A stretch of 42,422 nucleotides of DNA from Bryobacterales bacterium (GTDB lineage: Bacteria; Acidobacteriota; Terriglobia; Bryobacterales; Bryobacteraceae), in the NCBI GenBank assembly GCA_027324255.1, contig DAHVTI010000373.1, forward strand, positions 1-42,422, given 5' to 3'. The notes under the pieces are model-generated. The model worked only from the letters and a program-made list of their open reading frames with translations, was not told the DNA's origin and searched no databases. Positions 13,470 to 18,271 of the stretch are shown one piece after another. Numbering within the stretch: position 1 is the first letter of the stretch; each line of letters begins with the position of its first letter. A program made the translations under genes and the position numbers.

Positions 13470-14024
13470 ATGCACGTTGCGCACTCAGCCTCGGCCCAGG
13501 TGCGGTCAGCTTTGAACGGAACTATTGCCGGCGCCTCCGGCTCCACCTTTGCCCTCGCTTCCAAGCCCGGCAACGATTCGACTACTTCGCTCAGTTTCAG
13601 CAGCGTCGGGGACTTCCAGACGCTGAACCTCGGTTTGGCCAGCGGCGAAAACTCCATCGGGCAGAACTACCCGATCATCTCTCCCCGTTTACCGCGGTAA
13701 TTCTGGGCGGGTAGACATTCATCCTCTCACCGGTGATCACCGAGAGCACCCAGAGCGCGGACAGCATTACATTCACTTCCGGTCATCCAGTGGCGTGAAA
13801 CCAACTCTTCAACCTGAGGCGCAAGTCAGAGCAGCAACCAGAACGACACCGGCTCCAACGGGCGCTCGTTTGAATCGCTGACGATGACATAAGTTCCGCA
13901 GCCTCTGCCGCCGCGTCTCGCCGAGCCGGTTCCAGAGCCTGCGTCCCTGACCTTCGTTGGCGCCGGTCTCACCGGGTTGGTCCATTCGCGACGCTGCCTG
14001 CCCTCTACTCCTCCGCCGTCCTGA
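13470..14024 (+). pseudogene. Decayed PEP-CTERM secreted protein gene
   Basis: This stretch has no intact gene but translates piecewise into one protein. Reading from 13470 gives a Ser/Thr/Gly-rich segment (SSVGDFQTLNLGLASGENS, then IGQNYPIISP). After a run of C near 13681-13686 the match continues one frame over as FTAVILGG, a TAG at 13712, TFILSPVITES and QSADSITFTSGHPVA, a TGA at 13796, then NQLFNL. Near 13818 it returns to the first frame as ASQSSNQNDTGSNGRSFES, a TAA at 13890, and ends with VPEPASLTFVGAGLTGL and an Arg pair. That ending matches the PEP-CTERM sorting signal handled by exosortases. No N-terminal signal peptide is visible, so the 5' end is probably lost. The last 20 bases overlap the convergent symporter gene. 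Confidence 0.72.
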
Positions 14025-15642
14025 ACTCAGCCAGCGCCAACCCCGTTCCCATCACCACCGCGCACCCCAGCACGTTCAGCCACAGGAACGCCACTTCCGT
14101 CCCGCTCCACACCGCGAACACCACCGCCTCGCCCACCAGCACCGCCGCAAATGCCGCCGTCCCCTTCACCTTCGGGAAGAAGAAAGCCAGCACGAACACT
14201 CCCAGCATGGAGCCGTAGAAGAGCGACCCCAGCTTGTTTACCGCCTCCACCAGCGATCCCAGGCCCTGCGCGTAATACGCCGTCACCACCGCATACAACC
14301 CCCAGAACCCGGTCAGCCAGCGCGAGGCCGCCAGGTAGTGCCGGTCCTCCGCATCCGGGCGCACGAAGCGCTTGTAGACGTCGATGACGCTCACCGTGGC
14401 CAGCGAGTTGACCTCTGCGGAGGCCGTCGACATCGCCGCAGCGAAGATGGCAGCCATCACCAGGCCCACCACGCCCACCGGCATGTAGCGCGTCACGAAC
14501 TGCAGGAAAATGTAGTTCGTGTCCTTGGCGCCGTTCTGCCCGGTAGCCCGCCCGGCCGCCTCGGCGGCGCCGGCCCGCGCGGCGTCCAGGTCTCTCTGCG
14601 CCGCGCGGAATTTCTCCCAATCCGACGTTCGTGCCGCCGCCCGCCGCGCCTCAAACGCCGCGTTGTAGCGCGCCTGCACGGCGCTGGAACCGGCCTGCCT
14701 CTCAAACGCCGCGTTCAACTCCGGATTGAAGTTCACCGGCGGCTTCTCGTAGACGTAAAACACGAACACCATGGCGCCCGTGAACAGGATGAAGAACTGC
14801 ATCGGGATCTTCGCCACCGCGTTGAACAGCAGGCTCAGCCGCATCTGCGTGACGTCGCGCCCCGTCAGGTAACGCTGCACCTGGCTCTGGTCGCAGCCGA
14901 AGTAAGCCAGCGCCAGGAACATCCCGCCGATCACGCCGCTCCACACGTTGTACTGGTCGTTGAACGAGAAGCTCCAGACGGCCGGGTTCAGCCGCCCCGC
15001 CGCCCCCGCCAGCGAAAGTGCCTGCGTGAATGGCAGGTCCGCGGGCAGCAGCAGCACCGCCGTCGTCAGGGCGGCGATCAGCCCCGCGATCATGATGATC
15101 ATCTGCAGCACGTCCGTCCACGTCACTGCCTGGATGCCGCCGCTCACCGTGTAGCTCACCACCAGGATGCCCATCAGCAGCGTCGTCCACTGGCTCGGCC
15201 AGCCCAGGATCACCGTCAGCACCACGGCCGGCGCGGACAGGGAAACCCCCACCGCCAGCCCGCGCGACAGTAGAAAGATCACGCCCACCAGCGCCCGCGT
15301 CTTGGCGTCGAACCGCTTCTCCAGGAACTCGTACGCCGTGTAGACCCCGCTATGGTGGAATCGCGGCACGGCAATGGCCGCGATGGCGATCATCGCCAGC
15401 GGCAGGCCCAGGTACATCTGCACGAACCGCATCCCGTCCGCGTAGCTCTGCCCCGTGGTCGAAATGAACGTGATGGCGCTGGCCTGCGTCGCCATGATCG
15501 ACAGCGCCATGGCGTACCATGGCATGCTCTTCCCCGCCAGCAGGTATTTCGAGGTCGTGTCGCTGCCCCGCCCGCGCCACATGCCGTAGGCGGCGATGCC
15601 CGCCAGCGACAACACCAGCACCACCCAATCGGCGGGCCTCAC
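14005..15642 (-). CDS. Sodium/solute symporter (SSS family)
   Basis: 545-residue inner-membrane transporter with about 13 hydrophobic helices and SSS-family segments (ADWVVLVLSL at the start, KYLLAGKSMPWYAMALS, FISTTGQSYADG, SRGLAVGVSLSAPAVVL, QSQVQRYL). Substrate is unknown. An Ala/Arg-rich soluble insert of about 75 residues, probably a helical hairpin, interrupts the membrane helices near residues 318-392. The start is GTG at 15640-15642, giving MRPADWVV, with GGAG 9 bases upstream; the frame runs further upstream, but that part is the frame-shifted copy of a small gene. The GTG overlaps the TGA of that small gene (GTGA), so the two are coupled. It lies last in a three-gene operon with an exported PIG-L protein, which may produce its substrate (inference). 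Confidence 0.92.
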   Translation of the reverse strand: MRPADWVVLVLSLAGIAAYGMWRGRGSDTTSKYLLAGKSMPWYAMALSIMATQASAITFISTTGQSYADGMRFVQMYLGLPLAMIAIAAIAVPRFHHSGVYTAYEFLEKRFDAKTRALVGVIFLLSRGLAVGVSLSAPAVVLTVILGWPSQWTTLLMGILVVSYTVSGGIQAVTWTDVLQMIIMIAGLIAALTTAVLLLPADLPFTQALSLAGAAGRLNPAVWSFSFNDQYNVWSGVIGGMFLALAYFGCDQSQVQRYLTGRDVTQMRLSLLFNAVAKIPMQFFILFTGAMVFVFYVYEKPPVNFNPELNAAFERQAGSSAVQARYNAAFEARRAAARTSDWEKFRAAQRDLDAARAGAAEAAGRATGQNGAKDTNYIFLQFVTRYMPVGVVGLVMAAIFAAAMSTASAEVNSLATVSVIDVYKRFVRPDAEDRHYLAASRWLTGFWGLYAVVTAYYAQGLGSLVEAVNKLGSLFYGSMLGVFVLAFFFPKVKGTAAFAAVLVGEAVVFAVWSGTEVAFLWLNVLGCAVVMGTGLALAEFRTAEE

Positions 15643-15761
15643 CGGTTCCAACTCCAGGTGAACCAACTGAACAGCGCGATCACCGCCGCCAGGTACAGCA
15701 CGACGGCCGAATAGATCCGCCGCCACGTGCGTAGAAAGGGAGGCCGCTCATCCTGCGTCAT
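15639..15761 (-). CDS. 40-residue single-pass membrane protein
   Basis: A short gene between the PIG-L protein and the symporter. It encodes MTQDERPPFLRTWRRIYSAV followed by a hydrophobic helix (about residues 18-34) and ends FTWSWNR. The charged N-terminus (R11, R14, R15) before the helix predicts N-in, C-out. Its ATG overlaps the TGA of the upstream gene (ATGA, 15758-15761) and its TGA overlaps the GTG of the symporter (GTGA, 15639-15642), so it completes a chain of two 4-base overlaps. This leaves little doubt it is translated. Its role is unknown; a small accessory subunit of the symporter is plausible from position (inference). It is too short for most automatic annotation. Confidence 0.85.
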   Translation of the reverse strand: MTQDERPPFLRTWRRIYSAVVLYLAAVIALFSWFTWSWNR

Positions 15762-18271
15762 CGTTGCCCCGCGCTCACGATGTTGGCGAACAGTTTGTAA
15801 GCCCCGGGAACGCCGGCCGGCAGCTCCCGGAACCAGTCGTACGACGTGTAGACATACGCGCCCTGTCCCACGCGAGTATAAAGCAGGCCGCCCTTGCGCG
15901 CCGGCTCGCCGGGGTCGTGGCTCTCGAGCACCGCCTCATACCGCGCGTCCCACTCCGCCGGGAAGTACAGCGCCCGCTCCTGCACCCAGCCGCCGAAATC
16001 CGCCTGCGTGATGTGGTTCGGCAACTGCAGCAGCCGGTGGTCCGGCAGCAGGAATTCCACCGGCGCCTCTTCCACCGTGGTCCGGTCGCGCCCGATCCGC
16101 AGCGGGTACGGGCCGACATTCTTCAGCGCGCCCGGATCTCCGCCGCCCGGCCCGCCGTCCAGCGTGTTGTACTGCACCACCAGCGTGCCGCCCCGCTCCA
16201 TGTACTCGCGCAGCCGCGCGTGCGCCGCGCGCAGGTCTTCCCGAACGTTCCAGGCCCGCACGCCGGTCACGATCGCGTCAAACCGCCGCAAATCGCCCTG
16301 CGCCAGGTCCCCGGCGCCCAGCAGCGTCACCTCGCAGCCCATCTCCTTCAGCGCCTCCGGCACCAGGTCCCCGGCGCCCATCACGTAGCCCACCCGCTTC
16401 GCCGTCACCCGCACGTCTTCGCGCAGCGCTTTCGTCGCCGCCGCGCGCAGCACCGTCTGTGGGGGAATGTGCTCGTAGTCGATCAGCGCCACCGCGTTCG
16501 ACCACTCGAATCCGTTCGTCTTCGCCGTCATCCGCAGTTCGCCCCGGCTCTGCGCCGCCGGCGGCGTGATGCGGAACCGCGCCGTGGCTACCTGCCCGCT
16601 CTCGGCCAGCGTGAACGGCGCCGACCCGGGCGACACCTGCCAGCCCGCCGGAGCCTGCACGCTCACCGTGCCCGATGCCGCCCCCGCGTTCGCCTTCACC
16701 TCCACCCGCACCTGCCGCGGCTCTGCCGTGGAGAAGAGCAGCGGGGTGTCGGAGAGCTTCAACGACACGGCCGGCACAATCACGAACGGCCGCGTCAGCT
16801 CTCCGCGCACGCGGTCCACGTACCGGTTCTCCACCGGCCGTGTGATCTCGATCGGCGCCCCCTCCACTTCCAGTTGGAAGCGCGCCGACAGCGCCGGTGC
16901 CGCCTCCGCCGGGCCGATGTCCAGCGGGTTGGAAATGGTATACAGGTTGCCCTTCCGCGGCTCCCGCAGTTGCAGCGGCTGCGAGAGCGCCTGATGCTCC
17001 GGGACCTTCAGCGTAGTCTTTGCGCTGTAGGGCAGGTTGCCGGCCAGGCCGGAGCCAGTGAATCCCGGCGCGCCCGCCATCCCTTTCAGCTCCGCGCCGG
17101 CCAGCCGGACTCTGGCCTTGCCCCGGTTCACCGCGCTCAGCGTCAGGCCCACTTCGCTCCCCGGCGTCGCCAGCGCCCGCGCCGCGCTCACGTCCACCCA
17201 TACGCCGGCCGCCAGCGCGATCGCCTCGTCGAACTCGCTCAGCTTCCTCTTCGCATCCGGGTGGTCCAGCGCCCTGGCCAGCTTCCGCGCCCGCAGCAGG
17301 GCCGGCAGAGTCTTCTCCGGCGCCTCCATCTGGTAGGCCGCCAGCGCCTCTCCCAGCGCTTTGTCCACCGCCTCGCCGCCGGGGAAGCGCTTCCACGACA
17401 CGTCCACGTCGTCGAAAAAGTCCTGCTTCGCCGGCTCGCCGGCGTAGAGGAACAGGTAGTTCGGCAGTGTGCCCTTCCGCTCCGCCGAGCCGAAGCCCTG
17501 GCTGCGGTGCTGGCTGCGGCTCAGGCCGGCCAGCTCTCCGTAGCTCATCCCCAGCACCGGGCTGTATTCGCCCGTGTCCACCATCAGCCGGTTCGGCGTC
17601 TTGTCGAGTTCCCGCTCCTGCTGGCGCGTGAAGCTGAAGCCGTTCCACAGCAGTCGCTTCGCCTGCCACGGCTCCGCGTACTTCAACTGTTCGGGAAATG
17701 CCTTCGGGTCCGCTGCCAGCTTGAAAGCCTCCTGCCCCAGGATCGAAGACGCCTGGTGGTGGCCGTGCCCGTCGCGCGTCGTGCCGGAGAATCGCAGCAA
17801 GACCACGTCCGGCCGGAACCGCCGGATCACCCACACCACGTCCGACAGCACATCCTGCCGGCCCCACTTCGCCAGGGTCTCGTCCGCCGTCTTCGAGAAC
17901 CCGAAGTCGATGGCCCGCGTGAAGTACTGCTCCGCGCCGTCGATCCGCCGCGCCGCCAGCAGTTCCTGCGTGCGGATCACTCCCAGCAGGTCGCCCTGCT
18001 CGTCGCCGATCAGGTTCTGCCCGCCCTCGCCGCGCGTCAGTGACAGGTAGCCCGTGCGCAGCTTGCGCCCCTGCGCGCAGTATGCCAGCAGCGCCGTGTT
18101 CTCGTCGTCCGGGTGGGCGGCGATCATCAGTACGCTGCCCACTACGCGCAGCCGTTCCAGTCGCTGGTAGAGCGCGGGCGCGCCGCCCAGCCGGCGGAAT
18201 TCAGCGGAAAGCGGAGCGGCCAGGGCCAGCGCCGCCGCGATGGCACACAGCCGTCGAGCGATGTTCTTCAT
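15758..18271 (-). CDS. Exported PIG-L/LmbE deacetylase with C-terminal GATase1-like domain
   Basis: 837 residues. The signal peptide spans residues 1-23 (ending PLSA). The PIG-L domain follows, with the zinc site AHPDDE (52-57) and HGHHQ (169-173); this family removes N-acetyl groups from sugar amides. Residues about 360-600 are beta-sandwich-like with alternating polar strands (NEW3-like). The last 220 residues (DAIVTGVRAWN, YMERGGTLVVQYN) resemble class I glutamine-amidotransferase or ThuA folds; no catalytic Cys was identified. Start MKNIARRLCA gives the best signal peptide; an ATG 7 codons earlier is possible. TACAAT at 18291-18296 is a likely -10 box 19 bases before the start. It is first in an operon with a small membrane protein and a symporter, which suggests a substrate processed in the periplasm and then imported. 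Confidence 0.88.
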   Translation of the reverse strand: MKNIARRLCAIAAALALAAPLSAEFRRLGGAPALYQRLERLRVVGSVLMIAAHPDDENTALLAYCAQGRKLRTGYLSLTRGEGGQNLIGDEQGDLLGVIRTQELLAARRIDGAEQYFTRAIDFGFSKTADETLAKWGRQDVLSDVVWVIRRFRPDVVLLRFSGTTRDGHGHHQASSILGQEAFKLAADPKAFPEQLKYAEPWQAKRLLWNGFSFTRQQERELDKTPNRLMVDTGEYSPVLGMSYGELAGLSRSQHRSQGFGSAERKGTLPNYLFLYAGEPAKQDFFDDVDVSWKRFPGGEAVDKALGEALAAYQMEAPEKTLPALLRARKLARALDHPDAKRKLSEFDEAIALAAGVWVDVSAARALATPGSEVGLTLSAVNRGKARVRLAGAELKGMAGAPGFTGSGLAGNLPYSAKTTLKVPEHQALSQPLQLREPRKGNLYTISNPLDIGPAEAAPALSARFQLEVEGAPIEITRPVENRYVDRVRGELTRPFVIVPAVSLKLSDTPLLFSTAEPRQVRVEVKANAGAASGTVSVQAPAGWQVSPGSAPFTLAESGQVATARFRITPPAAQSRGELRMTAKTNGFEWSNAVALIDYEHIPPQTVLRAAATKALREDVRVTAKRVGYVMGAGDLVPEALKEMGCEVTLLGAGDLAQGDLRRFDAIVTGVRAWNVREDLRAAHARLREYMERGGTLVVQYNTLDGGPGGGDPGALKNVGPYPLRIGRDRTTVEEAPVEFLLPDHRLLQLPNHITQADFGGWVQERALYFPAEWDARYEAVLESHDPGEPARKGGLLYTRVGQGAYVYTSYDWFRELPAGVPGAYKLFANIVSAGQR

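Follow-up and report, generated by a model that had tools for sequence, protein, structure and literature searches.

A single-helix membrane protein encoded beside a subfamily of SSS symporters is a candidate accessory subunit

Results

Gene organization of the locus

The window analyzed in this study is a 42,422-nt stretch of a Bryobacterales contig. On its minus strand lie, in this order, a gene for a PIG-L/LmbE-type hydrolase (837 aa; 15758..18271), a small open reading frame (ORF) of 40 aa encoding the membrane protein P0001 (15639..15761), and a gene for an SSS (SSF) sodium:solute symporter (545 aa; GTG start; 14005..15642). An ATGA (15758..15761) comprises the PIG-L stop and the start of the small ORF, and a GTGA (15639..15642) comprises the stop of the small ORF and the symporter start. 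This chain of three genes had been proposed from the letters of the DNA alone (the sequence-only reading), and both 4-base overlaps were confirmed on the minus strand at 15761..15758 and 15642..15639. The symporter gene (15642..14005) falls almost entirely beyond the range of that reading, 15639-18271.

The symporter scored 145.8 bits with PF00474 (curated cut-off, 22.8; E = 2.2e-42) and is a member of the SSF/SSS family. It also exceeded the cut-off of TIGR00813 (242.7 bits; cut-off, 184), and its score with TIGR03648, the VC_2705 model, was 65.9 bits, under the cut-off of 320.75. Solved structures near it by sequence include SMVT (multivitamin transporter), SMCT1, vSGLT, SiaT, and NIS. The match to the SSF profile is interrupted at residues ca. 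300–390, and the structure model of a homologue (L034) has long helices there; the subfamily therefore seems to carry a helical insertion. A search of viral contigs gave two pattern matches and no confirmed symporter relative.

The hydrolase belongs to the PIG-L/LmbE superfamily (PF02585, 56.1 bits; cut-off, 28.2; E = 6.9e-15) and carries an NPCBM-associated domain (PF10633, 6.3e-07). Its N-terminus resembles a signal peptide, as judged by eye. Its scores were below the cut-offs of the BshB1 equivalog TIGR04001 (30.8 of 182.5 bits) and the Mca equivalog TIGR03446 (44 of 277.15 bits).

The small protein and its family

As previously described from the letters, the 40-residue product has one hydrophobic stretch, whose best 17-residue window (I16–S32) has a mean hydropathy of 2.28. 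The best 17-residue window was at least 1.76 in 243 members of the family. Predicted lengths have a median of 44 residues (range, 27–74), as set by a start-choice rule devised for this analysis. The small protein is predicted to form a single membrane helix: its length leaves room for one, and one helix was obtained in each of two structure models.

In an alignment of 55 members, Y17 was invariant and V20 was kept in at least 90%, and the mean column identity was 34%; the sequences differ widely. The W-rich C-terminus FTWSWNR, once suggested as a conserved signature, was rejected, since the consensus end of the 55 members is LFYxFTxxFx. No acceptable match to the window protein was found among the Pfam and NCBIfam profiles, and by these profile searches the family appears to belong to no family of either collection. 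A match to UcrQ (0.15) was below acceptance and was judged to be due to chance, as were matches to DUF2976, SoxE_N, MAP17, and other profiles, each involving at most four of the 55 members. A comparison with solved structures gave no match, and one Bacteroidota small protein searched in plasmids had no relative there. None of 105 upstream frames open for at least 25 residues showed the small protein naturally fused to the symporter (best score, 3.7 bits).

Occurrence of the small ORF at symporter loci

A first search with a single small-protein sequence matched 22 of 149 phylum genomes (23 places), and at 16 of the 23 loci the small ORF precedes a symporter homologue. Six first-pass matches (L016–L020 and L023) were judged by eye to be due to chance. 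To avoid the bias of a small-protein search, later loci were picked by symporter similarity alone. Of the 396 phylum genomes, 151 had a symporter match at E 1e-60, and in the phylum Bacteroidota 114 of 296 genomes had one at E 1e-120; the second set consisted of the best 80 of more than 589 symporter loci in a scan of named genomes. We took 110 places in set 1, 80 in set 2, and 89 in set 3, together with 10 extra orthologues that repeat set 2. The usable loci numbered 288 and the distinct symporter proteins 274.

Upstream ORFs were scored with an HMM (threshold, 14 bits) that was started from 16 small proteins and then refined in rounds on ORFs upstream of symporters. The sequence-only reading had proposed looking in acidobacterial genomes for short ORFs between PIG-L and SSS genes; a homologue was found directly upstream of 245 of the 274 distinct symporters (96/110, 73/78, and 76/86 in sets 1, 2, and 3, respectively). 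At eight more loci (L047, L054, L066, L113, L159, L285, L291, and L319), the small ORF was weaker or was taken from an earlier model or by eye; at two loci (L050 and L087) a contig end truncates the sequence, and 19 symporters have no small ORF next to them. The small stop and the symporter start overlap by 4 nt in 139 of the 245 loci. In named records, the pairing occurs in Acidobacteriota, Bacteroidota, Ignavibacteriota, Calditrichota (one), and Candidatus Eiseniibacteriota (one). In-frame stops interrupt some Bacteroidota symporter matches, namely the second copy of G699 (four stops) and those of G481, G516, and G667 (a single TAA each); these are perhaps decaying copies or assembly errors.

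Among the 245 loci that carry the small ORF, 153 have PIG-L upstream and 18 have it downstream; in the other 74, the examined stretch shows no PIG-L. The upstream PIG-L match ends within 1.2 kb in 150 of the 153 loci; among the 74, at least 1.2 kb upstream was examined in 70 and at least 3 kb in 45. The earlier proposal that the three genes form one uptake unit is not supported in the sense of a fixed trio; the constant partner is the symporter. The association of the small gene with the symporter is closer than that with PIG-L, which was counted at loci only.

Selection and genome-wide co-occurrence

We compared 49 pairs of close relatives, each locus being used once (1940 codons). The pN/pS of the small ORF was 0.29 in frame versus 1.13 and 1.64 in the shifted frames, and differences at codon positions 1, 2, and 3 affected 22, 14, and 44% of the codons, respectively. 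The suggestion that the ORF is a real coding gene is thus borne out by purifying selection on its product.

In ten control genomes, the small ORF was present at nine of ten orthologous symporters versus none of the 19 paralogous SSS genes examined, where the best small-ORF score was 7.8 bits; among the control loci, L243 is a second piece of L226. We also searched the 396 phylum genomes with a profile of 55 small proteins (A4; threshold, E 0.001), which was trained on ORFs beside symporters and applied to whole genomes. It matched 141 genomes, all of them among the 151 symporter genomes, and none of the 245 symporter-less genomes. Six of the ten symporter genomes without a profile match show a weaker adjacent ORF (G088, G125, G237, G293, G325, and G367), G296 and G304 have no small ORF on a wider reading of the locus, and the loci of the remaining two (G008 and G096) are outside the fetched set.

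The adjacency at 245 of 274 symporters, the in-frame constraint, and the genome-wide profile result together indicate that the ORF is more than a product of chance. It is a conserved coding gene confined to symporter genomes. Adjacency and this confinement support the earlier idea that the small protein is a partner of the symporter.

Putative interface between the small protein and the symporter

Since the small ORF and the symporter gene are in frame at 56 loci, read-through chains could be modelled. The L034 model had a pLDDT of 90.1 and a pTM of 0.88, with the small helix at pLDDT ca. 87–93. Its symporter part matches SiaT (5nva; Z, 43.4; 2.1 Å over 462 residues) as well as other SLC5 folds, and the small helix lies outside those alignments. 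In the L129 model, the small helix was poor (pLDDT, 52–68).

Covariation was measured by a mean-field method in 244 symporter–small protein pairs (effective number, 178), a sample that makes the analysis underpowered. The top inter-protein pair was symporter L218 and small-protein F34 (z, 8.96), the four shuffles peaking at 6.7, 6.0, 5.6, and 5.3. The symporter–small protein pairs A89–R14, I85–V21, G79–L24, and M71–F34 form an antiparallel register along M2 (sums, 103–106), and symporter L218 and P220, the latter paired with small-protein T35, are located by the M6 entrance. Pairs above z 5 numbered 12 with the true pairing and 14, 5, 2, and 2 in the shuffles; I85–V21 retained a z of 4.19 in one shuffle. 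The M2 band ranked fifth of 1063 by mean and tied with band 227–229 for most strong pairs. When mutual information was calculated in split halves of 96 and 148, L218–F34 (3.5/3.0) and G79–L24 (3.2/3.6) persisted, P220–T35 gave -0.1/6.5, the other M2/M6 pairs were weaker, and most top pairs were elsewhere. These covariation results give a hint that the small helix may touch M2 and M6 of the symporter.

The N-terminus of SSS symporters lies outside. With the antiparallel register along M2, the N-terminus of the small protein would then face inside. Lys and Arg near the helix (n = 243) averaged 2.0 in the up to 12 residues before it versus 0.8 in the tail, which averages 5.5 residues; per residue the two sides are about equal, and charge therefore does not settle the orientation.

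The small protein is very probably an accessory subunit specific to a single subfamily of SSS symporters. In this reading, it is one helix whose synthesis immediately precedes that of its partner. Translation of the small ORF would be coupled to that of the symporter, and the product would bind the symporter, possibly at M2 and the M6 entrance, its N-terminus facing inside. Once bound, the helix would stabilize or tune its partner in a way comparable to the role of MAP17 for SGLT2. A factor that acts transiently on the symporter during its assembly or insertion would be expected to show identical genetics, and the small gene does precede the symporter gene; the suggestive covariation fits a lasting interface somewhat better, with nothing decisive, and we regard such a factor as unlikely.

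Loci where the small gene and the symporter are apart

A tree of 157 symporters includes 19 rows that lack an adjacent ORF. Their distribution requires a minimum of nine changes, which fits an ancestral small gene that was moved or lost repeatedly. According to the profile, 12 of 18 genomes with a non-adjacent symporter keep an acceptable copy of the small gene elsewhere. In G336 the order is PIG-L–small gene–BshC–BshB1–BshA–SSS, and G702 has the same layout when two of its loci are joined; in G351 a PIG-L–small gene pair is close to a contig end. G398 and G703 (L338 and L337) have the order small gene–CutC–SSS, the CutC-like gene of L338 matching the CutC profile below the equivalog cut-off. 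The small gene is present at another symporter locus in G701 and G175, and unlinked copies occur in G680, G459, G505, G206, and G123.

Some of the unlinked copies have other neighbors. In G123 (L341/L013), whose symporter is on a different contig, a small-family gene (E 1.6e-8) is located directly before a gene for a FecCD/BtuC-type ABC permease (by eye). In G459 and G505 (L342 and L343), the stand-alone small genes are ca. 15 kb from the symporter and converge on an SLC13-like sodium symporter gene (by eye).

An acceptable copy was not found in six of the 18 genomes (G304, G296, G567, G549, G541, and G518); in these, the symporter can do without the small protein or has replaced it. A match in G567 (E 0.00145) looked CcmD-like on inspection by eye and was discarded. 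In G549, G541, and G518 (L329–L331), PIG-L overlaps the symporter directly, and these loci offer a possible natural test of what replaces the small gene.

Copies that lie at a distance from the symporter speak against the gene being no more than a coupling device. The small ORF might otherwise be a leader whose translation opens the symporter start and whose peptide does little, and both the very common 4-nt overlap (139/245) and the wide variation among members (mean column identity of 34%) would suit such a role. Yet selection acts on the protein, tyrosine Y17 is invariant, and coupling is impossible in the several genomes where the copies are distant from the symporter; a translational-coupling or regulatory leader is thus very improbable. 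It is just as improbable that the small protein is a membrane anchor or chaperone of PIG-L instead of a partner of the symporter: PIG-L is upstream at 153 of 245 loci and the PIG-L–small gene pair is intact in G336 and G702 though Bsh genes separate it from the symporter, but 74 loci lack PIG-L in the examined stretch, 18 have it downstream, L329–L331 lack the small gene where PIG-L overlaps the symporter, and presence of the small gene follows the symporter genome-wide.

Bacillithiol genes near the system

BshC, BshB1, and BshA of the G336 operon all exceed their equivalog cut-offs. In further loci BshA is upstream of the PIG-L–small gene–SSS genes, and all five tested (L072, L103, L105, L110, and L111) were above the cut-off; in G175, BshC is 31 bp from the symporter. 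Taken together, operon-like clusters of Bsh, PIG-L, and symporter genes, with or without the small gene, were seen in several Acidobacteriota lineages (L357:1-6443, L353, L354, L162, L110, L072, and L359). Among the matches listed, the symporter and BshC are at most 15 kb apart in 22 of 86 genomes holding both, and these 22 belong to seven families, 14 being in one family. BshC was found in 124 of 151 symporter genomes versus 115 of 245 others (odds ratio, 5.2, with kinship ignored), and the source genome has it too (two matches; best, 1.8e-67). Bacillithiol genes as a universal neighbor of the system were rejected: the window contains no Bsh gene, the Bacteroidota loci of the 80-locus second set gave none at E 1e-20, and a BshC match is lacking in 27 of the 151 symporter genomes. 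The presence of these genes beside the system in some Acidobacteriota lineages is a lead on the substrate.

Discussion

The earlier suggestion that the system takes up a substrate produced extracytoplasmically is plausible, given the signal-peptide-like N-terminus of PIG-L (by eye) and the bacillithiol neighbors in some lineages. The system may import an amino-sugar product freed outside the cytoplasm by PIG-L, which might be related to bacillithiol in some lineages; this step is weaker than the binding of the small protein. A wider proposal, which we offer as a doubtful possibility, combines a single-helix subunit family near-obligate to a widespread SLC5-type symporter with a thiol salvage cycle based on an extracytoplasmic PIG-L amidase. 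Acting on bacillithiol or its conjugates, the amidase would free glucosaminyl-malate or an amino sugar like it, which the symporter and its small subunit would then retrieve for re-use. Thiol salvage of this kind is inferred. The bacillithiol neighbors provide a first concrete guess at what the symporter carries and at the substrates of the PIG-L proteins beside it that look exported.

Mca and Bca, two amidases of thiol conjugates, belong with BshB to the PIG-L/LmbE superfamily, to which the window PIG-L is also assigned by profile. The window protein differs from Mca and BshB1 in that it is far below their equivalog cut-offs, is longer, and looks exported. In PMC4360819, Mca is described as cleaving mycothiol conjugates, and Mca and Bca as thiol-conjugate amidases. 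The text of PMC4101496 contains no mention of a signal peptide, periplasm, symporter, transporter, or secretion.

The literature searched contains no description of the pairing of the small protein with the symporter, and papers beyond the searched collection may hold one; PMC10903887 has no mention of symporter, sodium, Bacteroid-, or Acidobacteri- terms. If the subunit reading is true, a whole subfamily of bacterial SLC5-type transporters has been annotated without one of its parts, and such a symporter expressed alone may show little activity.

Small membrane proteins encoded beside SSS genes include DUF4212/TIGR03647, DUF485 (YjcH with ActP), and DUF997 (YhdT with PanF) proteins, which are longer and have more than one helix. 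The protein reported here is like them in being a small membrane protein encoded next to an SSS gene. Unlike them, none of the 55 members matched DUF4212, DUF485, or DUF997 at E ≤ 0.1, where 11 Pfam and 8 NCBIfam families were matched. AcrZ with AcrB and CydX with cytochrome bd are likewise reported to be small helical parts of large membrane complexes, and their partners differ from the symporter.

A parallel in logic is MAP17, which has one helix. According to PMC9616851, SGLT2 requires MAP17 (PDZK1IP1), which binds M13 of SGLT2, and the stable module of SGLT1 consists of M1, M2, M6, M7, and M11–M13. As in the pairing of MAP17 with SGLT2 and SGLT1 described there, the partner of a small membrane protein is a transporter of this superfamily; in contrast to binding at M13, covariation here hints at M2 and M6. 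Unlike MAP17, the small gene is encoded beside its partner, and there is no accepted sequence relation (the MAP17 profile PF15807 matched one of the 55 small proteins at E 0.075, below acceptance and at chance level). A MAP17-like role of the small protein is suggested here by genomic co-occurrence and covariation. If the subunit reading is true, the bacterial pairs would be simple models for the tuning of SLC5 transporters by a single helix, as in MAP17–SGLT2.
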